The position numbers and the translations under genes were made by a program. Below are positions 1 through 43,182 of a stretch of DNA of 57,753 nucleotides, in pieces. The notes under the pieces are model-generated. The model did not search any database. It was not told the DNA's origin and was given only the letters and a program-made list of their open reading frames with translations. Source of the DNA: an uncultured Flavobacteriales bacterium. Its GTDB lineage: Bacteria; Bacteroidota; Bacteroidia; Flavobacteriales_D; Crocinitomicaceae. Numbering within the stretch: position 1 is the stretch's first letter; each line of letters starts with the position of its first letter. The stretch covers positions 1 to 57,753 of the forward strand of contig CAJAVU010000066.1 in the NCBI GenBank assembly GCA_903945495.1, given 5' to 3'.

Positions 1-51
1 CGCTAACGACAATAACATCCCCACAAGTGTCAAGGTCAAAATTTTCTTCAT
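1..51 (-). CDS. Start of a secreted protein (truncated by window edge)
   Basis: Only the first 17 codons are present, read leftward from an ATG at 51-49. They encode a typical exported start: two lysines followed by a leucine-rich hydrophobic core (MKKILTLTLVGMLLSLA), so a signal peptide is likely. On the same strand, about 40 bases upstream, there is a TATTTTCG hexamer-like box resembling the Bacteroidota -7 element. The mature protein lies outside the window, so no function can be given. Confidence 0.6.
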   Translation of the reverse strand, partial: MKKILTLTLVGMLLSLA

Positions 52-183
52 TGTTGTTTGTTTTTATTAATAAGGTCTTTCATGTTCGTGCGAAAATACA
101 ATATTTTATACCGTAATTCCAAAAAATATTATTCACAATTGTATTTTAATCTTTTGAAATAAAGTAATTTCCAACTCGTTTTA

Positions 184-1884
184 ATGCAGATGCGTACTAT
201 ATTCCTTTTTTTTGTGCTTTTTTCTTTGTTTGGAGCAAATGCCCAGAAGGAATATTCTGTTGTCTTTACAACGAGGGAATATCAAAAAGTTAAAAAAAAT
301 ATCCCAACTCATTTCAAGGATAGCACATTTGCTTTAGATTATTTAAGGAATTTTCAATTGCTATGTATTAAAAAAGGATACTTGTTAGCTTCCTTTGATT
401 CAATTCAATTTGCTAAAAACCAGCTTGTAGCGCATTTAAACCTGGGAGATCAATTAAATCAGATTAACATTTCAATCCCAAAAGAATCACTCGACTTCAT
501 AAAACAAAAAGCAAAATTTTCCGAAAAATCATTGGCGCATATTCCTTTCAATGCATCAGAATTAAACAGAATATTAAAGTCAATTTATACTTCCGCCTCC
601 TCCAATGGCTATCCATTTGTCAAGGTTTTTTTAGAAGACATAAACTATTCACCAAATTCCGTTTCTGCAAACCTAAATTTAAATCTTGGCAAACGGTTCA
701 AAATTTCAAAAATCAACGTTAAAGGTGATAGCTCTATTTCTGTTTTATTTCTGGCGAGTCTACTCGATATTAAAGAAGGAAATTACTACGACGAAAACAA
801 ATTCAGTCAAATATCTGGTAAAATCAAACAAATTCCTTTCCTGAAAGAAATAAAACCACATGAATTACTCTTCACAAAAGATGGAGTAGAATTGTTCTTA
901 TACTTAAACTCAGTACCTGTGAGCTCAGTAAATGGAGCAATAGGTCTTCAACCGAATACAGTTACCAAAAAATTGAGTTTAACAGGCGATTTAAGTTTAA
1001 AACTACTCAATGTATTGAAACGCGGAGAACTATTGAATTTGAATTGGAAAAGCATACAAGCTCAAACTCAATCATTGGATGCAAAAATAAACTATCCCTT
1101 TCTTTTTAAGACTCCTTTTGGAATTGATGGCCATTTTCATCTGTATAAACGAGACTCATCCTTTTTAGAATTGAAAAGCACAATTGGTATACAGTATTTT
1201 TTAAAAGGAGGAAGTTATCTTAAAGCTTTCTATCAAAACTCTTCATCGTCTGTTCTTTCAGGAGGTAAAAACAATCCATCTTTTAGCAATTTAACAAGCG
1301 TATCAACAAATGCGTACGGTTTATCATTGTTCAAACGACAATTAGATTATATACCAAATCCATCTAAAGGCTACAGTTTAACAGCTGAAATTGCGATTGG
1401 TACACGTAAAAAACTCGCTGTTGACACCTTCCCAGAAATAAAATCTACCACGTATAAATCACTTTTACAATTCGATTGGTTTCTACCAATTACTCGGCGC
1501 AATGTTCTGCATTTTTCCACTACAACTGCATTTTACATCGCTTCCGAAATATATCAAAATGAAGTATATCGTTTTGGAGGGCAAACTAGTTTAAGAGGTT
1601 TTAATGAAGAAGAAATTTATGCAACCTCTCAATCAATCTTGAGTTTGGAATATCGTTTTTTATTGGATCGTAATTCTCATCTGTTCGCATTTTTTGACCA
1701 AGCTTTTTATGAAAATACCTCAAACACATATTCGAACGATCATCCTTATGGATTTGGACTTGGTTTCTCTTTCGGAACAAACATTGGTATTTTCTCGATT
1801 TCTTATGCTTTAGGGAAACAATTTGATAATCCTATTTTGATGCGTAACGGAAAAGTGCATTTCGGTTATATCGCATATTTCTAG
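184..1884 (+). CDS. Omp85/BamA-TamA family outer membrane protein
   Basis: Predicted outer-membrane beta-barrel of the Omp85 superfamily, the family that inserts or translocates proteins across the outer membrane. The 566-residue product starts with a signal peptide (hydrophobic core, then ANAQ). A periplasmic part with POTRA-like segments follows (e.g. the KRFKISKINVKGD region near residue 170-185). The C-terminal half is rich in alternating aromatic strands, contains the RFGGQTSLRGF element typical of the Omp85 barrel motif near residue 465, and ends in an aromatic (AYF). It is shorter than BamA (about 800 residues), so a TamA-like or surface-antigen-type role is more likely than the essential BamA. 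The nearby MQ and MR starts differ by two codons. rmuC follows after 13 bases and may be cotranscribed. Family seen; exact client unknown. Confidence 0.85.
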   Translation: MQMRTIFLFFVLFSLFGANAQKEYSVVFTTREYQKVKKNIPTHFKDSTFALDYLRNFQLLCIKKGYLLASFDSIQFAKNQLVAHLNLGDQLNQINISIPKESLDFIKQKAKFSEKSLAHIPFNASELNRILKSIYTSASSNGYPFVKVFLEDINYSPNSVSANLNLNLGKRFKISKINVKGDSSISVLFLASLLDIKEGNYYDENKFSQISGKIKQIPFLKEIKPHELLFTKDGVELFLYLNSVPVSSVNGAIGLQPNTVTKKLSLTGDLSLKLLNVLKRGELLNLNWKSIQAQTQSLDAKINYPFLFKTPFGIDGHFHLYKRDSSFLELKSTIGIQYFLKGGSYLKAFYQNSSSSVLSGGKNNPSFSNLTSVSTNAYGLSLFKRQLDYIPNPSKGYSLTAEIAIGTRKKLAVDTFPEIKSTTYKSLLQFDWFLPITRRNVLHFSTTTAFYIASEIYQNEVYRFGGQTSLRGFNEEEIYATSQSILSLEYRFLLDRNSHLFAFFDQAFYENTSNTYSNDHPYGFGLGFSFGTNIGIFSISYALGKQFDNPILMRNGKVHFGYIAYF

Positions 1885-34504: not shown

Positions 34505-36097
34505 TTAAAGCGCTGAAGGGAAACTTTCAGCGTTTTTGTTTTGTACTGTTCTCAATCGTTTTACGGCATTTTCCCGTGTTACCAATTCAAGTGGTCGCAA
34601 GAATATTTTACTATCCAACCAGGAAATAATATCAAAATACATGAATGCTTTTTTCTCAAGTGGATTGTTCTCCAATTCAAGCATTTTTTCTTTCAAACGA
34701 ATGAATTGACGATGCACATTTTTCTCTGATGGTTCGCTAAATAAATAGCGCACGAACTCTAAGATATTACGCTGATATACACTAATCTGTCCCTTTTTAG
34801 AAAAATAACGATAGGTCGAACGAATATTGGATTCCACCAAGGTATCATTTCCCATTTCGTAATGACAAACCAACAATAGAATCCGCGTAAAAGCCAAAAT
34901 GTCTTCGCGTAAGTCAATTTGCTTTTCGTTGTAAATCTTATTCAACCATTTGACAGCAATTTTGAATTTACCACAACCAATAAACAAACATGCAATTTTG
35001 TAATAGAAGATAAGAATCGAATGTTTGTCAAGCATTGGTAAAAAACGATTCAACTCATCTTCCAGTGCATCAACAATACGCGTACCTGATGTAAATTGTC
35101 CGCGCATGAAATGGCGATTGATCTGATGCACATAAATTGCTTTGAACAGATTGAGATTTATGTTTTCTGTAAGAACAAACTCTTTATTTCGCTTGATTCC
35201 GGTAAGTTCCCGTAGTACTTTCTCGAACTCTTTGATGTAGCGCAACTTATTCAACACAACCAATAAACTATTTAACGCTTTGATATACGCTTCCAATTTA
35301 TGTTGTTTCATTTCAGGGTTTCCATGGAACAAGTCAACTAACTTTCGCGCATAAACGTATCCATTTTCAAAATCTTGGATGTAAAAGAAATATCCTACAT
35401 ACGCATTATACATGTGCAAACGCTCTTGAAATGACAAGCTGTTTTCGTCAAAGTCGGGAATGTTCTCTTGAAATAAATCTGCAATTTGCGCAATGTCTTC
35501 CGGATCCTTACTGAAACCTGTTTGCACATAAAAGGCATTCATTTTTAAGGCCAAATTGGAATAGCCATTTCCATTTCGAATGCTTTCAGTAACGTTATTT
35601 GTGTAATCAATCAAGGCATTCACACGTTGTTGATTTCCGGATTCAATCGTTTTGGGGATTACTAATTTTTCCAGATCAAGGATTTCCAATAACAAAATGG
35701 AACTATTGTTTTCTATCGCCAACAGCTTAGCTTTATCCAACATTTTCACACATTCTTTATATAAACATTTGTTATACAGAATGCGCGCATAATCTAAATA
35801 CATGGTCAATTCCAAATGTTCTTCCTTGCTCGCATTTAATAAACGTAAACTCTTTAATAGTTGAGAATACAAATGCGCTTTCATGTTTGAAATTTGCCCT
35901 GGAACAAAGGATTTTTCTTTGCGAAGAATCGCTTCCTCATCATACATTTCTTGTTTCTCAATCGCATCAAACAACCGCAAAAACTTTTTATCACCAGCCG
36001 GATTTATACGTGTTGTATAGATTTTGAAAAAGCGCTTCTCCCCTTTCGATAAGGAATGAATTAATTTAAATAATTGATCACTTTTAACGTTAGACAT
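34505..36097 (-). CDS. Conserved helical-repeat protein of unknown function
   Basis: 530-residue cytoplasmic protein, no signal or membrane segment. It is almost entirely alpha-helical by composition, with TPR-like spacing (e.g. YLDYARILYNKCLYKECVKMLDKAKLLAIE near 110-140 and FYYKIACLFIGCGKFKIAVKWLNKIYNEKQI near 365-395). It opens with KSDQLFKLIHSLSKGEKRFFKIY, an opening I associate with a conserved Bacteroidota family without known function. A scaffold role is the only guess. Its upstream region (36098-36416) is long and AT-rich. Confidence 0.75.
   Translation of the reverse strand: MSNVKSDQLFKLIHSLSKGEKRFFKIYTTRINPAGDKKFLRLFDAIEKQEMYDEEAILRKEKSFVPGQISNMKAHLYSQLLKSLRLLNASKEEHLELTMYLDYARILYNKCLYKECVKMLDKAKLLAIENNSSILLLEILDLEKLVIPKTIESGNQQRVNALIDYTNNVTESIRNGNGYSNLALKMNAFYVQTGFSKDPEDIAQIADLFQENIPDFDENSLSFQERLHMYNAYVGYFFYIQDFENGYVYARKLVDLFHGNPEMKQHKLEAYIKALNSLLVVLNKLRYIKEFEKVLRELTGIKRNKEFVLTENINLNLFKAIYVHQINRHFMRGQFTSGTRIVDALEDELNRFLPMLDKHSILIFYYKIACLFIGCGKFKIAVKWLNKIYNEKQIDLREDILAFTRILLLVCHYEMGNDTLVESNIRSTYRYFSKKGQISVYQRNILEFVRYLFSEPSEKNVHRQFIRLKEKMLELENNPLEKKAFMYFDIISWLDSKIFLRPLELVTRENAVKRLRTVQNKNAESFPSAL
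34511..34539 (+). terminator. Terminator with GNRA loop, overlapping opposite gene end
   Basis: A 9-bp stem (34511-34519 with 34524-34532, one G-U) with a GAAA tetraloop and TTTTTGTTTT tail ends the repeat-protein transcript. It lies inside the last codons of the convergent 34505-36097 gene. Confidence 0.85.
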
Positions 36098-36233
36098 CGT
36101 AATTATAAAACTATCTATTTACTTTATTTGTATACAATAATACTATTTTTCTTTTCAAAATAGATATTTATCTATCGTAGCTTGAATTGTTTTTTGTTTT
36201 CACGTTAGATTGTGTCCTCTTACATTTGATACA

Positions 36234-36403
36234 TAATTCAATTCCAGTGTTTTTCAGGAATAATTATTTTAGATTTTATTGAGTTCCTTGCTATTACTTC
36301 CTTTTTTATTTTAAAGTTTTGGGGAAGTATAAAAATTTTTCAGGTTGATGCAAGAGAATAAACAAAGGGAGCGCTTTAAGCAACGCTCCCTTTGTTTTTT
36401 TTT
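36234..36403 (+). ncRNA. Candidate small RNA
   Basis: Hypothesis: a ~170-nt plus-strand transcript starting near 36234 (after TACATTTG at 36221-36228; a TTTG at 36193-36196 is a few bases too far for an ideal -33 box). It would end at the strong hairpin at 36361-36396 with its T-run. No plus-strand gene lies upstream that would need this terminator. It might instead serve only the minus-strand ABC gene. A 6S-like RNA was considered, but I cannot identify a family. Confidence 0.3.
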
Positions 36404-36404
36404 A
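36361..36404. terminator. Strong hairpin terminator, better T-run on plus strand
   Basis: A 13-bp perfect stem (AACAAAGGGAGCG at 36361-36373 with its complement at 36384-36396) is followed on the plus strand by a long T-run to 36403. On the minus strand it is followed only by a short T-rich tail. It lies 20 bases after the stop of the minus-strand ABC exporter gene and can serve both strands. Confidence 0.85.
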
Positions 36405-36416
36405 TTAACAGATTGT

Positions 36417-38153
36417 TTAGATTCGACTCTGATATGTAAACAAGTCGAAGTATCTTCCTTTTTTCGCAATCAACTCATCGTGTTTACCACGCTCAACAAT
36501 TTTCCCTTCTTCTATCACTAAAATTTGATCTGCTTTTTGAATTGTACTCAAACGGTGTGCAATCACAAACGTTGTTCTGTTTTGCATCAAATCTTGCAAA
36601 CTGCGTTGAATGAATGATTCACTTTCTGTATCCAAATTCGATGTTGCTTCATCCAAAATAATCACTTTAGGATTTGCCAACAAAGCGCGTGCAATGGAGA
36701 TTCGCTGACGTTGTCCACCTGAAAGTTTTACACCACGTTCACCAATTACTGTATCTAATCCCAATTCAAAGCGATCGGTGAATTCATTCACGTATGCTCC
36801 CTGAACAGCTCTTAACAATTCTTCTTCAGTTGCATTTGGTCGCGGAAACAAAATGTTTTCACGAATCGTACCTTCATATAAGAAATCATCTTGTAATACA
36901 ACACCGAGGTGTTTTCTAAAACTGCTCAAATTGATTGTTGAAGTATCAACTCCATCCAAGGTAATCATTCCACCAGTTGGATTTAAGAAAGTCGCTGCCA
37001 ATCCTGCAATTGTTGATTTTCCTGAACCTGACGAACCAACCAAGGCTGTCACACTTCCTGCTGGTGCTGAAAACGTAATGTCATGCAAGACTTCTTTGCT
37101 TTCCTCATAACTAAAACGAACATCGTTAAATTCGATGTCACCTTTAATCGATTCAATTTCAACGGTACGAACTTCAGGATCATTTTCCTCTGTCATGTTC
37201 ATCAATTCCTGCGTACGATCCAATCCTGCCATCGCTTCTGTCAATTGACTTCCGATGTTACTCATTTGTACAATTGGTGCAATCATGAATCCTAAGAACA
37301 GTGTAAATGAAATAAAATCTCCAGTAGACATTGTATTTCCCATCATGAAATATCCACCAATTCCCATAATTCCAGCGGATGCTAAACCAAGTAAGAACGT
37401 CGATGAACTTGTCATGATCGCAGTTGCAGTCAAGGATTTTTTCACGTTTTCAAACAAACGATCTACTCCTTTTTCGAAAATTTTATTCTCTTGCTCTTCT
37501 GCATTAAATCCTTTGATGACACGAACACCGTTCATTGTTTCTGTTAAACGTCCGGTAACTTCAGCATTGATCTTACCGCGATCTCTAAATACTGGGCGAA
37601 TATATGCGAATGCTTTTAAAGCAATAAATGCAAAGACCACAACAGGAAGTAATACAAACAAGGTCATCCATGCATTGATTTTGATCAAAAACACCAAGGC
37701 AATAATCGAGGTAATTGTTCCACCAATCAATTGTACCAAACCTGTTCCCACAATATTGCGAACCCCTTCAACATCCGTCATTACACGAGAAACTAAGGCT
37801 CCCGATTTATTGTTATCGAAAAAACTAATCGGCAATGTCAATAATTTACGTTGCACTTTTGTTCTCAAAACAGAAATCAAACGCTGTGCTTCAACACTCA
37901 GTAATTTTGTCAGTGAATAGGAACTGACAGCTTGCACCAATAAAGAAGCGCAAACTACCACGATTAAAATCCACAAGGCATGTTTGTCACCTGAAGGCAC
38001 AACAACATCTAACAGATTTTTACTCGCGTAAGGAAGCACCAATCCTGCTAAACTTCGAATGATTATTAGTATTAAACCAATTGATATTATTTTTTTTCTC
38101 GGCCAGATAAACTCTTTAAATGCCCATGAAAAGGATACGTTTTTTTTACTCAT
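36417..38153 (-). CDS. ABC exporter, fused permease-ATPase (MsbA-like)
   Basis: 578-residue half-transporter acting as a dimer in the inner membrane. Six transmembrane helices span about residues 20-310 (ABC type I exporter fold), then the nucleotide-binding domain: Walker A LVGSSGSGKST (about 373-383), Q-loop GVVLQDDFLYEGTIREN, signature LSGGQRQR, Walker B KVIILDEATSNLD, H-loop VIAHRLST. The relatives export lipid A, lipids or drugs; substrate not predictable. It is divergent from a His-rich ORF and the padR gene, and an imperfect palindrome lies in between. Confidence 0.95.
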   Translation of the reverse strand: MSKKNVSFSWAFKEFIWPRKKIISIGLILIIIRSLAGLVLPYASKNLLDVVVPSGDKHALWILIVVVCASLLVQAVSSYSLTKLLSVEAQRLISVLRTKVQRKLLTLPISFFDNNKSGALVSRVMTDVEGVRNIVGTGLVQLIGGTITSIIALVFLIKINAWMTLFVLLPVVVFAFIALKAFAYIRPVFRDRGKINAEVTGRLTETMNGVRVIKGFNAEEQENKIFEKGVDRLFENVKKSLTATAIMTSSSTFLLGLASAGIMGIGGYFMMGNTMSTGDFISFTLFLGFMIAPIVQMSNIGSQLTEAMAGLDRTQELMNMTEENDPEVRTVEIESIKGDIEFNDVRFSYEESKEVLHDITFSAPAGSVTALVGSSGSGKSTIAGLAATFLNPTGGMITLDGVDTSTINLSSFRKHLGVVLQDDFLYEGTIRENILFPRPNATEEELLRAVQGAYVNEFTDRFELGLDTVIGERGVKLSGGQRQRISIARALLANPKVIILDEATSNLDTESESFIQRSLQDLMQNRTTFVIAHRLSTIQKADQILVIEEGKIVERGKHDELIAKKGRYFDLFTYQSRI

Positions 38154-38183
38154 GCTTCATTTTTGTCTAAAATCTTGCCAAAA

Positions 38184-38197
38184 GTTACCTAGGTGAC
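38184..38197. promoter_or_regulatory. Imperfect palindrome between divergent genes
   Basis: GTTACCTAGGTGAC is symmetric at 12 of 14 positions, with perfect core ACCTAGGT. It lies 31 bases upstream of the ABC exporter start and 32 upstream of the His-rich ORF. The half-site ACCTA recurs in the inverted repeat before padR, though with different spacing, so a shared regulator is possible but unproven. Confidence 0.4.
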
Positions 38198-38228
38198 AAT
38201 CCGTCATGAATTATCAACAAAGGAAAAC

Positions 38229-38546
38229 ATGAAACGAAAAACAAGCATTATCATTGGAAAAGTCACAGCAATTCTAACTTTTGGTAGTCTAGCGGCTTTT
38301 GTCCCAAGACATTGCCAAGGTCACCAACAACATTGCGGGTCTCAAACTGAACATTGTCACACACACAAACAACATACACATCACCATCAACTACATGAGC
38401 AAAACAACGCTTCAAACAAACAGAAAGAACCAATTTTTCATGTAGCAACTTCAAAAGACTCCGATTTTCGGGGTCTTTTTTTTATTCAATTTTTCATGAA
38501 ACGCCCATTATTACTGACTTTTACCCCCCCCTTTAATACTTTATAA
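38229..38546 (+). CDS. Small His/Cys-rich exported protein, doubtful 3' end
   Basis: 105-residue ORF: a signal-like start (MKRKTSIIIGKVTAILTFGSLAAF) then a metal-binding-like stretch with about a dozen histidines and three cysteines (HCQGHQQHCG, HCHTHKQHTHHHQLHEQ, about 30-62). The reading frame then runs through a hairpin terminator (38451-38481) and a C8 tract, giving an odd C-terminus. One T fewer in TTTTT at 38436-38440 would end it at a TAG just before the terminator. Metal binding is likely from composition; role unknown. Confidence 0.55.
   Translation: MKRKTSIIIGKVTAILTFGSLAAFVPRHCQGHQQHCGSQTEHCHTHKQHTHHHQLHEQNNASNKQKEPIFHVATSKDSDFRGLFFIQFFMKRPLLLTFTPPFNTL
38449..38482 (+). terminator. 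Terminator lying inside the His-rich ORF
   Basis: Stem AAAAGAC-CCGA with TCGG-GTCTTTT (about 38452-38478; one T-G pair) around a short T loop, followed by eight T. As the annotated ORF continues through it, either the ORF end is wrong or the terminator is internal. Confidence 0.75.
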
Positions 38547-38550
38547 AATT

Positions 38551-38573
38551 TATACCTAATTTTCTTAGGTATA
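38551..38573. promoter_or_regulatory. Perfect inverted repeat, probable PadR operator
   Basis: Arms TATACCTAA (38551-38559) and TTAGGTATA (38565-38573), 9 bp each, are separated by TTTTC. PadR regulators bind such dyads and repress themselves. The dyad lies where the -33 box would be for a TATATTTG -7 element at 38588-38595, so binding would block transcription. Confidence 0.75.
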
Positions 38574-38587
38574 TAAAATAAAAAGTA

Positions 38588-38595
38588 TATATTTG
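38588..38595 (+). promoter_or_regulatory. Likely -7 box of padR promoter
   Basis: TATATTTG matches the Bacteroidota TAnnTTTG consensus. The padR ATG at 38600 is only 4 bases further, so the mRNA may be leaderless or nearly so. Confidence 0.55.
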
Positions 38596-38599
38596 TATC

Positions 38600-38938
38600 A
38601 TGTATTCATCAGAACTAGTAAAAGGAACTTTAAAAACGATTATTTTAAAGTTATTGTCGGAAAGCGACAAAATGTATGGGTATGAGATTACTCAGAAAGT
38701 AAAAGACCTTACGGGTGGAAAAATTCAATTGACTGAAGGCGCGTTGTATCCTACATTGCACGCGATGGAAGCACAAGGAATTTTAACCACAGATGTAGTG
38801 AATGTAGGAAACCGCATTCGTAAGTATTACTCAGTAACTCAAACCGGTAAAAAAGTCGCGACAGAAAAGGTGAATGAGTTTTCGGACTTCATCGACACGA
38901 TGATTTTCCTGTTAGACTTAAAACCTAAAATGGGTTAA
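38600..38938 (+). CDS. PadR-family transcriptional regulator
   Basis: 112-residue winged-helix repressor. It has the PadR core LLSESDKMYGYEITQKVKDLTGGKIQLTEGALYPTLHAMEAQGILTT (about 16-62), with the conserved YGYEI, GALYPTL and Y(S)VTxxGKK parts, then a short dimerisation helix. It belongs to the short PadR-s2 type without the long C-terminal domain. One base after its stop comes the start of the next membrane protein gene, so the two form a regulator-membrane partner pair. The upstream dyad is its likely binding site. Confidence 0.93.
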   Translation: MYSSELVKGTLKTIILKLLSESDKMYGYEITQKVKDLTGGKIQLTEGALYPTLHAMEAQGILTTDVVNVGNRIRKYYSVTQTGKKVATEKVNEFSDFIDTMIFLLDLKPKMG

Positions 38939-38939
38939 A

Positions 38940-40142
38940 ATGTATGTTTTAAAAGACGAACACATATCGTTCATTCTTGAGGACATTAGACGTAATGGAA
39001 TTGAGTCGGAGGAGCTGCAGCTAGATCTCCTGGACCACATTTGTTGTGTGATTGAAACAGAAATGTTACCTGACAAAAACTTCGATGAATTTTACCGAAG
39101 CATTATCCCGCGTTTTTATAAACGTGAGCTAAAGGAAATTCAAGAAGAGACACAATTATTACTAACATTTAAAAATTATTACGCCATGAAAAAAGTCATG
39201 ATCATGAGTGGAGCGTTTTCAGCTTTCACCTTTATAATTGGTTCTTTGCTTAAAATTATGCATTGGCCTGGAGCATCACTATTATTGCTCACTGGAATTG
39301 TTTTTTTCTGCTTCTTGTTTCTTCCAATCCTTTCAATTTTGAAGGTAAAAGAACAGAAACAAAGTAAAGACAAATTGCTCATCGGAATCGCTACCATATT
39401 TGCAATTGCAATTTGTTTAGCAACATTATTTAAAGTGATGCATTGGCCATTTGCCAGCATGTTATGGTCAAGTTCGCTTGGAATTCTTTTTTTTCTGTTT
39501 CTACCGATTTATTTCTTCGGAGGAATTCGTAATCCAGAAACGAAAACGAACACGATCATTTCATCCATTTTGATTCTCACAGCAGGTGGTTTATTGTTTA
39601 TTCTGACGAATCTTAGAGCAAGTCATGTAACCGAAGAAGCTGTTTTCAATTCAGATGATCAATTGCGAGCAAGTTACGCATATTTGAGCGAGCAAAAAAG
39701 TTCAGACTCTTTAAGCGAAAATCAACAATTGCTCATTAAAAAGGCAGATGCATTGTGTTTGAAAATTGAAAACTTAAAAGTTGGACTAATAAAATCAATC
39801 ACTCCTGATGGAAAAGAAATGGCAGAAAATGAGGCGATTCGTTTGTTCAGTAACAAATTTGACCCTGTTCAATCGTACTTATTTGCTGAAAACGGTCAAG
39901 CATCAACTGAATTAGCATCTATCAAAAAGGAACTTGCAGAATTGCAAAAATTGGTTCAAGAAAACACTGCGGATAAAGAATGTTCGTTAATTAGTACAGA
40001 AAATATCCATCGTTCAGATTACAAAAATCAAACTCTTTCTTGGGAAGAATTTTATTTCAAAGGTCTACCAATGGAAAACGTTTTTCGAAATTTTAATCAA
40101 TTATTGGTGAACATTCGAATCGTTGTAGTAAGCAACAATTAA
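38940..40142 (+). CDS. PadR-partner membrane protein with GldL-like hairpins and GldM-D1-like domain
   Basis: 400 residues with a rare layout. Residues 1-80 are a cytoplasmic helical domain with LQLDLLDHICCVIETEM, like the HAAS-type domains found beside PadR genes. Next come two membrane hairpins, each with a GldL-like motif between helices: LLKIMHWPGAS at 103-113 and LFKVMHWPFAS at 163-173 (compare LFKIQHWPGA of GldL). A fifth helix (about 205-224) leads to a periplasmic helical domain (225-400), whose end EEFYFKGLPMENVFRNFNQL resembles the last helix of GldM domain D1. The conserved glutamate of GldL helix 2 is not present in either hairpin, so proton coupling is unlikely. Family likeness is from memory. 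Confidence 0.6.
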   Translation: MYVLKDEHISFILEDIRRNGIESEELQLDLLDHICCVIETEMLPDKNFDEFYRSIIPRFYKRELKEIQEETQLLLTFKNYYAMKKVMIMSGAFSAFTFIIGSLLKIMHWPGASLLLLTGIVFFCFLFLPILSILKVKEQKQSKDKLLIGIATIFAIAICLATLFKVMHWPFASMLWSSSLGILFFLFLPIYFFGGIRNPETKTNTIISSILILTAGGLLFILTNLRASHVTEEAVFNSDDQLRASYAYLSEQKSSDSLSENQQLLIKKADALCLKIENLKVGLIKSITPDGKEMAENEAIRLFSNKFDPVQSYLFAENGQASTELASIKKELAELQKLVQENTADKECSLISTENIHRSDYKNQTLSWEEFYFKGLPMENVFRNFNQLLVNIRIVVVSNN

Positions 40143-40321
40143 TTAAATCGATAGAAGAGGTCTAAAAACAACAACTTTATTCAAACTCTCTGAGGTGAAT
40201 CAAAAAGTGATGAAATGCAAGGCGTTAGAATAATGATTTCGGGGTTTACATTCGTAAATCACTAATGCTTAATTTCGAAAACAACGAAGCAGTTTATTGC
40301 TTTTTGAGCACCTTCGGAAAA

Positions 40322-40657
40322 TTAATTGTCTTGGAATCCCTGGTTAATCCACAAATAAACAACATTCTTAGTACTATCATCCAACACATGATCCATCGGC
40401 ATTTGGGCAAAATTAGTATCACCTAATAAACATCCTGCCAATTGGCCTGTTTCCACAATCTCTGCAATATGTTCGTAATCATAAAGTTCGACAGATGAAC
40501 TTCCAATTGAGTGACATTGGATGCAATGTGCTTCAATAATCGGTTCAATATCCTTGTGATACGAAACGACAGTTGGATCAATTGGTTTTATGCTTCCCTT
40601 TTCACAACTCAATAATGCCACGAAACAGCCTAATACCGCGATGTACTTCTTTTTCAT
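40322..40657 (-). CDS. Lipoprotein with cytochrome c-type heme motif
   Basis: 111-residue lipoprotein: signal MKKKYIAVLGCFVALLSC with lipobox LLSC. The mature part has a single c-type heme-binding motif, AHCIQCHSIG (about residues 47-56), preceded by YHKDIEPIIEAHC as in planctomycete-type cytochrome C domains. A Met in AQMPMDHVL could be the sixth ligand. It may carry electrons or bind heme at the periplasmic face of the outer membrane. The ATG at 40657 gives the cleanest signal; another ATG is 18 bases upstream. Confidence 0.75.
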   Translation of the reverse strand: MKKKYIAVLGCFVALLSCEKGSIKPIDPTVVSYHKDIEPIIEAHCIQCHSIGSSSVELYDYEHIAEIVETGQLAGCLLGDTNFAQMPMDHVLDDSTKNVVYLWINQGFQDN

Positions 40658-40885
40658 ATATTCCTTTTTACGCATCAAAAGTACAGGCGTGATGTAGCTG
40701 TAATATTAAAGAGATATTAAGCTTTTAATTTAAATGTTAAACTTCCTTCACATCTAGTTAATATTAACTTTTGCGTCTTTTCTCGCTTGAAAAGCTGTTA
40801 AAACATTCACATATTAATCCAACACATCTTTTCGATTAATAATGAAGTAATCGTACCTTTACATTGTTAATCAACTACTAAGAAT

Positions 40886-41962
40886 ATGTATTTCTCTCCA
40901 CTCAAAAGCATTGCTGCATTTGCATTAATTGCTGTCACAATTTTCAGTTGTAAAAAAGATCAAACGCCGGATGATCAAACTCCAACTCCAACTGGACCCT
41001 ATTCGAACATCGAAAATACACTTGGTTTTAATTTACTAGACAAAGTCAAAGGAATTTGGAATGGCCCAGTTACGTCAACAACAGCACTTGGTAGTTTTCC
41101 TGAATGGATTGTCGATTTTCGTCCAATTTCTGCGAGTCAAATCTCCGCAAAAAACGAATTAGACACGATGAATGATATTCACATGTCGTTTTTCATTGCC
41201 AAGTACAACAACGAATACCGTGTGGCATTCAGAAATGGTGGCGCTTTTGGTGGACAAATACGTGTTTCTTATTTATTAGCAGATAGTGTTTCTGAAACGG
41301 CTTCGCAATCCTATTATCGCTTTTCCGAAATTTTGAAAGGCAAAAATCGTTGTTATGCTGAAGTAATCGTTAAACAAGATAGTTTGATTATTAAATCATA
41401 TACGAATCATTACGACACACAACCCACTGCAACACCTCATATGGTTTGGAGTGCGAAATTGCAAGATCAAACAACGTGTACTGCAGCTGTGAGTCAGTTT
41501 TCATTCCCACAAAAATCCTTGTCATTTGACTTAAGCGAATCATTTATGGGATTAACGGAATCGATTTTTTATTCCATCACGGGTGGAGATCCGTATCCAG
41601 AAACAGACCAACCTTATTTAGGAAAAGTAAACATTTCCTATTCCTATTCTGGAGCTTTTTCTCCTGTTTCAAGTAAAAAAGTAATGTTGATTGTTTCTGC
41701 TCAACCTTTGATATCAGGTACAGGATTGAACACAAACAATTTAAAATTCCGCTCGCGTTACGTTGTATTAAGTGCATCAGACTTAAACTTCACGTTTAAT
41801 TATCTGCATCCTGGAACGTATTATGTGTATGCGTTTTATGACAATGATGGAAACGGAACTGCAAATAGCGGTGATTGGATAAGTGCGACGAATACGACAT
41901 TCTCATTAACGAGTCAACAAACGGTTTCAGCCAATACACAGATCAATTTTACCATTCCATAA
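40886..41962 (+). CDS. Lipoprotein of unknown function
   Basis: 358-residue lipoprotein: signal with lipobox VTIFSC (about residues 17-22), then a D/T/P-rich linker. The mature region is beta-rich, with no motif I recognise in residues 40-260. The last ~90 residues (NFTFNYLHPGTYYVYAFYDNDGNGTANSGDW) resemble a carbohydrate-binding or transthyretin-like beta sandwich, with a DNDGNG loop that could bind calcium. Its role is unknown. Confidence 0.75.
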   Translation: MYFSPLKSIAAFALIAVTIFSCKKDQTPDDQTPTPTGPYSNIENTLGFNLLDKVKGIWNGPVTSTTALGSFPEWIVDFRPISASQISAKNELDTMNDIHMSFFIAKYNNEYRVAFRNGGAFGGQIRVSYLLADSVSETASQSYYRFSEILKGKNRCYAEVIVKQDSLIIKSYTNHYDTQPTATPHMVWSAKLQDQTTCTAAVSQFSFPQKSLSFDLSESFMGLTESIFYSITGGDPYPETDQPYLGKVNISYSYSGAFSPVSSKKVMLIVSAQPLISGTGLNTNNLKFRSRYVVLSASDLNFTFNYLHPGTYYVYAFYDNDGNGTANSGDWISATNTTFSLTSQQTVSANTQINFTIP

Positions 41963-42013
41963 GCCCTTACATAATTAGATTTAGACAAAAAATTAGCCTT
42001 CTCAACAAAAGCT

Positions 42014-42021
42014 TATCTTTG
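42014..42021 (+). promoter_or_regulatory. Likely -7 promoter box of the helicase gene
   Basis: TATCTTTG fits TAnnTTTG and lies 18 bases before the helicase ATG. No good -33 TTTG is seen at the right spacing. Confidence 0.5.
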
Positions 42022-42039
42022 TCTTCTAAAAAATAGTTC

Positions 42040-43182
42040 ATGCCCTTTTCAAAATTAGGTTTAGCACCAGAATTCATTCGCGTAATTGAAATCCAAAAAT
42101 ACGCACAACCAACTCCTATCCAAGAAGCTGCAATTCCAGCTATTCTTGACAGCAAAGATGTTTTAGGAATTGCGCAAACTGGTTCTGGAAAAACAGCGAG
42201 TTTTGTTTTACCATTGCTAACCAATTTAAAGGAAAGTAAGCCCTTAAAAAATCGACACATCAAAACGTTGGTGGTCGTTCCAACCCGCGAATTAGCGATT
42301 CAGGTGCGTGAAGTATTTCAATTGTTCAGCGGCGCATTGGACACACCAATTAAAACAATGGCAGTTTACGGAGGTGTTTCAATTAACCCTCAAATGAAAG
42401 CTTTAATGGGTGTTTCGATTTTGATTGCAACGCCAGGACGTTTACTCGAACTTGAACGACTGAATGCGATTAATCTTTCCGAAGTGCAAACGTTGGTATT
42501 GGATGAGGCCGATAAAATGCTCAACCTCGGATTCAAGGATGAGATGAATGAAATTTTTGACTTGCTTCCAAAAAAACGTCAAAACTTGCTCTTCTCGGCT
42601 ACCTTAAGTGAAGATTTATCGGGGATTACTTCGGTTGTTTTACATGACCCAGTTACCATCAAAATTGGAGAAGAAAAGGAAAACATTGAACTGATTACAC
42701 AAACGGGTTATTTTATTTCGGAAGAGAAAAAAGGTCCTTTGTTGCGCTATATCATCAAGTCACAAAACATGAAACAAGTGTTGGTGTTTACCTCATCAGC
42801 ATTCAAAGCAGACCAAGTAACTGAAAAATTGCGAAAAAACGGTGTTGATGCAATGGCTATGCACAGCAAGAAAAGCCAAGAAGCGCGTGTTCGTGCACTA
42901 ACGAATTTCAAAAATGGAAACACTCGTGTACTGGTTGCAACAGACATCATTGCACGCGGAATCGATATTCAGTTTTTACCGTATGTTATCAATTACGAAT
43001 TACCACGCTCACCAAAAGATTACGTTCACAGAATTGGTAGAACTGGTCGTGCGGAAAATCCGGGAGAAGCAATTTCACTTGTGACACCTGACGAAGCAAA
43101 TCATTTCCGTGTGATCCAAAAGAAAATGGGGAAATGGGTAACGATGGTGGATGGAGAGACGCTGAATTTGCATGGATTTTAG
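42040..43182 (+). CDS. DEAD-box RNA helicase (RhlE-like)
   Basis: 380-residue ATP-dependent RNA helicase core. Motifs in order: Q-motif PTPIQEAAIPAI, motif I AQTGSGKT (about 45-52), PTRELAIQ, GG, TPGRL, motif II VLDEADKML, motif III SAT, then the second RecA domain with VLVFTSSA, ARGIDI and HRIGRTGRA. There is no basic C-terminal tail, so this is a minimal form. Such enzymes remodel rRNA and mRNA, often in the cold. Repeat-rich DNA follows. Confidence 0.95.
   Translation: MPFSKLGLAPEFIRVIEIQKYAQPTPIQEAAIPAILDSKDVLGIAQTGSGKTASFVLPLLTNLKESKPLKNRHIKTLVVVPTRELAIQVREVFQLFSGALDTPIKTMAVYGGVSINPQMKALMGVSILIATPGRLLELERLNAINLSEVQTLVLDEADKMLNLGFKDEMNEIFDLLPKKRQNLLFSATLSEDLSGITSVVLHDPVTIKIGEEKENIELITQTGYFISEEKKGPLLRYIIKSQNMKQVLVFTSSAFKADQVTEKLRKNGVDAMAMHSKKSQEARVRALTNFKNGNTRVLVATDIIARGIDIQFLPYVINYELPRSPKDYVHRIGRTGRAENPGEAISLVTPDEANHFRVIQKKMGKWVTMVDGETLNLHGF

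Follow-up and report, generated by a model that had tools for sequence, protein, structure and literature searches.

In the 57,753-nucleotide contig of an uncultured Flavobacteriales bacterium analysed here (referred to as the window), a gene for a PadR-type regulator is followed by a gene for a membrane protein, its partner, which joins in one chain an N-terminal helical domain, two hairpins of the kind found in GldL and a domain resembling D1 of GldM, i.e. relatives of two parts of the motor that powers gliding and type IX secretion (T9SS). This architecture is firmly supported by profile searches, profile-profile alignment and, for D1, a modelled fold. As to its role, the preferred reading, to which we give an even chance, is that of an autoregulated two-gene membrane switch, similar in layout to the HAAS-PadR dyad, with a de-powered motor-like unit as sensor.

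A motor-like membrane protein beside padR

The features that an earlier reading of the sequence alone had described were confirmed, including the single base between the padR stop and the partner start (38938 to 38940), the motif LLDHICCVIE at partner residues 30-39, and two occurrences of LxKxMHWPxAS at residues 103-113 and 163-173. The segment EEFYFKGLPMENV, taken in that reading as the end of the periplasmic domain, does lie near the C-terminus, but some 18 further, mostly helical residues follow it. The two hairpins and fifth helix were recovered in an AlphaFold2 model (mean pLDDT 89.2, pTM 0.71) run on a 60-member alignment that comprised the window protein and 59 of 80 loci from a pattern search, picked by eye. 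The model features five long helices, at residues 65-106, 112-138, 142-166, 172-196 and 202-222, and then a mainly helical domain at 229-399; in the sequence, K/R-rich loops lie on the side of the N-terminus.

Table 1. Features of the padR operon and its upstream region (window coordinates; residues are those of the partner protein).
Feature	Position	Residues	Strand	Description or support
Candidate PadR operator, inverted repeat TACCTAA-TTTTC-TTAGGTA	core 38553-38571, perfect 9+9 at 38551-38573		.	conserved upstream of padR
TATATTTG, candidate -7 element	38588-38595		+	fits TAnnTTTG; 4 nt ahead of padR ATG
padR	38600-38938		+	112 aa winged-helix regulator; Pfam PadR PF03551, 73.7 bits, cut-off 27
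Partner membrane protein gene	38940-40142		+	400 aa; open reading frame
N-terminal helical domain (PadR-partner domain), cytoplasmic	38940-39179	1-80	+	motif DHxCCxxE
GldL-type hairpin 1, LLKIMHWPGAS	39180-39353	81-138	+	GldL_N; hhalign 98.4%
GldL-type hairpin 2, LFKVMHWPFAS	39363-39530	142-197	+	second GldL_N stretch; hhalign 97.6%
Fifth helix, at place of GldM single TM helix	39531-39614	198-225	+	structural alignment
GldM D1-like periplasmic domain	39615-40139	226-400	+	GldM_1st; PorM fold match

The partner scored above the Pfam cut-offs of both GldL_N (PF22827; 39.7 bits against 24, in two stretches) and GldM_1st (PF12081; 27.2 bits against 25, residues 252-388), and matched the full-length GldL model TIGR03513 weakly, at 22.1 bits and below the cut-off of 68.3. 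At E<=0.01, GldL_N was matched by all 60 aligned family members and GldM_1st by 13. A 21-member profile, built from the window protein and 20 of the 30 loci of a search for relatives, ranked GldM/PorM chains in the first five places among PDB sequences, led by 7sau_A (7.3e-8, profile positions 219-400); the GldL chain 7sau_C came after them (8.3e-4, positions 82-127). The same profile had matches in 33 of 296 Bacteroidota genomes, where it met GldL- and GldM-like frames besides family members. In profile-profile alignment with hhalign, the two hairpins were related to 30 true GldLs with the probabilities given in Table 1, and the end of helix 5 together with D1 to 10 true GldMs with 97.6% probability; the N-terminal domain, as a control, gave less than 1% against either set. 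In a fold search the best nine entries were all GldM or PorM, and the tenth, an unrelated one, had a Z score of 8.2. Modelled D1 matched PorM 7cmg_A with Z 17.1 (158 residues aligned, 2.2 A), and residues 200-400 (helix 5 and D1) matched residues 5-213 of GldM 7sau_B with Z 16.8 (rmsd 4.0 A, 184 aligned). No GldL chains were brought up for the hairpins by the search with the partner model, and their relation to GldL therefore rests on sequence. The homology claimed in the sequence-only reading is thus right for this protein, for GldL by sequence and for GldM by sequence and fold: the succession of PadR-partner domain, two GldL hairpins and GldM D1 is borne out by profiles and profile-profile alignment and, for D1, by fold, and the relation of residues 225-400 to GldM D1 stands up to both profile and structure.

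Several features of the motor are absent. In the hhalign register, the glutamate in TM2 of GldL, reported as required for secretion and gliding in F. johnsoniae (PMC8986121), maps to partner residues 123 and 183. Neither position holds an acidic residue in any of the 60 aligned members, window protein included, which extends to the family the loss that the earlier reading had noted in both hairpins. The loop lysine (residue 105, K in 59 and R in 1 of 60; residue 165, K in 50 of 60) and the loop histidine (54 and 58 of 60 for hairpins 1 and 2) are kept, with counts that are inflated because the locus-search patterns favoured the letters FK..H..A. Like the GldLM/PorLM motor (PMC8986121, PMC9389320), as far as these accounts were consulted, the partner has the GldL hairpin, the GldM helix and the D1 fold. 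Unlike the motor, it is a single chain linked to a PadR, with two hairpins for each GldM-like helix (a ratio of 4:2 if dimeric, versus 5:2 in the motor as described in the same sources), and lacks domains D2-D4, the chain stopping after D1 at residue 400, as well as the cytoplasmic tail of GldL. The true gldL/gldM pair of the same genome sits elsewhere (G000:C23), and the partner gene is not the gldL neighbour of a T9SS operon. Since the proton-carrying glutamate is missing and the hairpins are covalently tied to the GldM-like helix, free rotation is not expected; hairpins and helix on one chain should prevent it from being continuous. Because it lacks the acid that drives the motor, the partner looks like a self-regulating membrane sensor, and not like an engine.

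Spread and descent of the family

The pairing with PadR recurs across genomes, as the sequence-only reading had proposed to survey. In the relatives search, 28 of 30 loci have a PadR frame adjoining the match, the two misses being weak hairpin-only matches. PadR lies directly upstream of 76 of the 81 family frames in the named loci; of the other five, two are second tandem copies, one stands at a contig edge, one is followed by PadR instead, and one has its PadR more than 1 kb away. Within the taxonomic family of the window, 66 of 150 genomes have a relative at E<=1e-20, in 65 of them as a single match. The protein family is also widespread in a public genome collection, which yielded at least 592 pattern stretches, at least 456 of them confirmed; a plasmid search returned no relatives.

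The D1 domain is the variable part of the protein. Against a model of true-GldM D1, 15 of 60 members reached E<1e-3, 37 longer members did not (the window protein among them, at 0.0027), and eight lack the domain. Taken as a group, the 37 D1-weak members were related to GldM D1 with 64% probability directly and to the 15-member group with 98.9%. As it is weak or absent in many members, D1 is not essential to all of them. For the 60-member tree, whose root is unplaced, the window protein, L031, L033, L086 and L097 (E 0.0018 to 0.0046) were labelled by hand as having D1, which gave 20 members with D1 present, 32 weak and 8 absent. These states are scattered over the tree and need 13 changes, and a late gain of D1 was set aside on this account in favour of repeated loss. 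The unrooted tree suggests that an ancestral D1 was degraded or lost several times while PadR, the N-terminal domain and the hairpins were retained. Over the 91 pairs of 14 loci, D1 evolved fastest (mean pN 0.47), the hairpins (0.23) and the N-terminal domain (0.22) came next, and PadR was slowest (0.10). In close pairs, synonymous differences are far rarer in padR than in the hairpin part of the partner (0.06 versus 0.51 between the window and L002); five further close pairs behave alike, as do 64 of the 91 pairs overall, with the effect fading in distant pairs. This deficit may reflect synonymous constraint or local recombination.

Chains in which GldL hairpins and a GldM D1 are joined also occur without the PadR-partner domain (L191:1730-2938, L194:1372-2829, L199:1966-3099 and L206:1502-2833). 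No PadR frame was present within the stretches examined around these four, some of which adjoin likely secreted proteins (judged by eye). Two short proteins with a likely signal peptide consist of a GldM D1-like domain only (L197:2001-2783 and L198:1694-2425); the genes next to them resemble, by eye, those for a ParA ATPase and a folate reductase. In a D1 tree of 20 PadR-linked proteins with clearer D1, the 4 other fusions, the 2 D1-only proteins and 18 GldMs, PadR-linked D1s group apart from GldM with support of 92/91, just short of the star awarded by the tool, and the D1s of the four PadR-free fusions fall among GldM. A single clade of PadR-linked D1s and PadR-free fusions was rejected (p-AU 0.026, with long branches present), and GldL-GldM fusions therefore probably arose at least twice.

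The hairpin itself extends well beyond the motor. Of 120 genomes from the order, 117 matched PF22827, 43 of them at two or more places, some of these places sharing one protein; 14 control genomes gave no match. Some of the extra hairpin proteins are SpoIIE-type phosphatases and others are short proteins, and for this reason the hairpin is favoured as a reusable sensory part. The earlier reading had asked whether the HWP motif is spread over unrelated membrane families: other membrane families have the hairpin as well, but the ones scanned match GldL_N itself. Three of 80 loci (L059:2144-3511, L063:1998-3206 and L110:2019-3254) have, divergent from padR, a gene for a SpoIIE-type PP2C phosphatase with GldL-type hairpins at its N-terminal end (L063 by custom models only). 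The window genome holds further hairpin frames of 124 aa (G000:C90:1886-2257) and 250 aa (G000:C57:3345-4094).

Such a distribution could also mean that the hairpin is an old, general membrane module of Bacteroidota with the motor as one of many users, and that the partner is an ordinary membrane-stress partner of PadR with no link to type IX secretion. The genomes with several hairpin places, the hairpins in phosphatases and short proteins, and the probable repeated origin of the fusions (subject to the long branches mentioned) all speak for this possibility. On the other hand, a generic hairpin does not predict that GldL_N and GldM D1 should occur together and in the order GldL then GldM, and hairpins as short and divergent as these cannot settle the direction of descent. 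We regard this explanation as possible but on balance doubtful.

It appears unlikely that the protein is a regulated antagonist of GldLM, with hairpins or a D1 that would enter mixed assemblies with GldL or GldM and so poison or slow the motor, and with a dose set by PadR. Homology to the GldL hairpin and the GldM D1 fold combined with loss of the essential glutamate would suit such a role, as would the presence of true gldL and gldM in the same genome and a PadR whose clearest target is its own operon (see below). However, relatives without D1, and a relative with one hairpin (L028), are paired with PadR as well, the N-terminal domain is also found beside PadR on a permease of the MacB/FtsX type (L115, PadR just upstream), and PadR-linked D1s stand apart from GldM in the tree, if just below the starred level. 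Three other loci have tandem runs of 2-4 membrane proteins of about 220 residues, in which every protein begins with the PadR-partner domain; the runs in L122 and L125 have a PadR frame next to them, and none was found at L121.

The padR promoter and predicted targets

The conserved inverted repeat in the padR promoter (Table 1) is new relative to the sequence-only reading. At up to two mismatches, the consensus taken from the window only was found in 51 of 104 upstream stretches versus 8 of 2080 mononucleotide shuffles. The stretches were then filtered by start codon and length, which left 53, and removal of near-copies left 51, window included. In these, a relaxed consensus TACMTAA-N5-TTAKGTA, picked after the list for the strict consensus had been seen, occurred at up to two mismatches in 48 of 51 padR promoters versus 36 of 2550 dinucleotide shuffles; because the loci are related, the counts in either comparison do not represent independent events. 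Downstream of the repeat, TATATTTG matches TAnnTTTG, which we take to be the -7 consensus of Bacteroidota, and since it stands so close to the ATG the padR mRNA may be nearly leaderless. A TAnnTTyG motif lies within about 60 nt upstream of padR in 47 of 51 loci, as counted without a shuffle control. An Rfam scan of positions 36000-43000 for an RNA element close to the operon gave no match at gathering score. By eye, a small frame upstream of padR (38229-38546) probably encodes a signal peptide and also has a stretch rich in His and Cys that might bind metal.

Over 20 whole genomes, 15 with the dyad and 5 without, 52 sites fit the repeat with at most one mismatch, 13 of them exactly. All 13 exact copies, distributed over 11 genomes, lie at the padR-partner promoter as judged from coordinates, and so do five of the 39 one-mismatch copies (in G011, G013, twice in G044, and a second one in G038); the remaining 34 lie elsewhere. 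No exact copy occurs in any of the five genomes that lack the dyad, and the promoter in G002 features only a poorer one, with 3 mismatches to the strict consensus. A reversed control pattern gave 5 to 20 one-mismatch hits per genome, exceeding the real pattern in at least 19 of the 20, so that the scattered one-mismatch copies are at chance level or below. In the window genome the promoter copy is the only exact one; five other places fit the strict consensus with 1-2 mismatches, four inside coding frames and the fifth (C57) in an open frame but before its first ATG. With all exact copies at its promoter and the others chance-like, the operon itself is the clearest predicted target of PadR. 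Autoregulation is likely on this evidence, and on the simplest reading of the promoter data PadR would act as a repressor of its own operon with few other targets, although it may have degenerate ones.

A fixed target gene in the neighbourhood was also considered. When the 468 flanking frames of at least 110 aa from 80 loci were clustered, no cluster was found in more than 10 loci, and the idea was dropped for this reason. We think it quite improbable that PadR governs other genes as well, e.g. the ABC exporter at 36417-38153, with the membrane protein as co-sensor only. In favour are the divergent orientation of this exporter gene relative to padR, the frequent control of exporters by PadR proteins, the start of a frame with 79% identity to it at the edge of L003, and the 34 one-mismatch copies of the repeat away from the promoter. 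Against this, the exporter is otherwise matched at only 24-29% identity, in four loci (many locus flanks being short), no neighbour recurs widely, and the window genome lacks another exact copy of the operator.

A proposed HAAS-PadR-like switch and known systems

In the autoregulated switch that we prefer, PadR dimers would bind the inverted repeat and repress the operon, and the cytoplasmic N-terminal domain of the partner would bind PadR, as has been proposed for HAAS domains. The membrane or the periplasm would determine how the hairpins pack around the GldM-like helix, with D1 tuning this; a change in packing would alter binding between the N-terminal domain and PadR, and with it the amount of membrane protein made. 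The partner would then be a de-powered relative of the motor that serves as both sensor and regulated product. What it might sense can only be guessed at from the fold, with membrane energy, tension or the state of the motor as candidates.

The closest parallel in layout is the HAAS-PadR dyad, which has been proposed as an alternative to two-component systems and includes uncharacterised partners with 6, 4 or 2 transmembrane segments (PMC11237479). In both cases a stand-alone PadR-type regulator adjoins a protein with an N-terminal helical domain ahead of a membrane sensor. Unlike the proteins covered in the part of that report drawn on here, which does not mention such a chain, the sensor of the present pair consists of two GldL hairpins and a GldM D1. 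Its N-terminal domain is at most a possible HAAS domain. None of 22 diverse N-terminal domains, in which D32, H33, E39 and F48 are invariant, matched Pfam HAAS (PF22564), and the GxP motif of the third HAAS helix is absent from their alignment by eye. C35 and C36 are found in all 60 aligned members, a conservation inflated because the pattern used to search for loci favoured CC. Permease prefix domain 1 was matched by 4 of the 22 domains (best 6.7e-5), the window's own not being among the hits, and the modelled domain (pLDDT only 75) matched the DUF1048 fold 2o4t with Z 6.0 (rmsd 6.2 over 79 aligned residues), a score that unrelated helical chains reached as well. With PF22564, the HAAS search hit a different set of proteins, about 500 aa long and of PspC type by eye, in 10 of 20 relatives (4 over the cut-off); this route to HAAS was rejected. 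By analogy, the domain would nevertheless behave like the HAAS domain of the dyad, and contact with PadR is plausible.

An experimental parallel for autorepression is provided by LltR of Listeria, a PadR that represses its own operon, in which the DUF1700 membrane protein Lmo0600 is encoded; Lmo0600 is behind the phenotype seen on derepression (PMC6624303). There, too, PadR and a multi-spanning membrane partner share one operon. The system differs in an additional DUF4097 gene and in that LltR affects a few other genes as well, and the portion of the report considered mentions no GldL or GldM parts. Docking of a regulator on a GldL-type subunit has a reported precedent in PorX-PorL (PMC5005315); the regulator in that case, as described, is a two-component response regulator acting on a real motor, with no PadR pair.

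It is tempting to go further and to view GldL-type hairpins as a general receptor unit of Bacteroidota with PadR transcription, SpoIIE phosphatase and motor torque as alternative outputs. The chain described here would then be a single-polypeptide GldLM without the glutamate, monitoring the condition of either the envelope or the T9SS motor and signalling it through a self-contained autoregulatory loop, forming an evolutionary bridge between motor and receptor. We offer this extension tentatively, as an idea that may well prove wrong. A patchy family that keeps the fold of the motor without its glutamate shows how components can be common to a rotary motor and a receptor. The two-gene operon with its defined candidate operator offers a small test bed in which membrane state might be read from one promoter. 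Should proton motive force or membrane tension turn out to be what the hairpin senses, this would also be informative about the response of GldL itself.

A search of open-access papers, judged by title and start of abstract, brought up no report of a PadR-linked or single-chain GldL-GldM protein. In the flavobacterium Zobellia, the PadR gene ZGAL_1768 is co-transcribed with the downstream gene ZGAL_1769, of unknown function, and the two are upregulated with six algal polysaccharides (PMC5613140); compared by description only, this pair resembles the present one in combining a PadR and a downstream gene.
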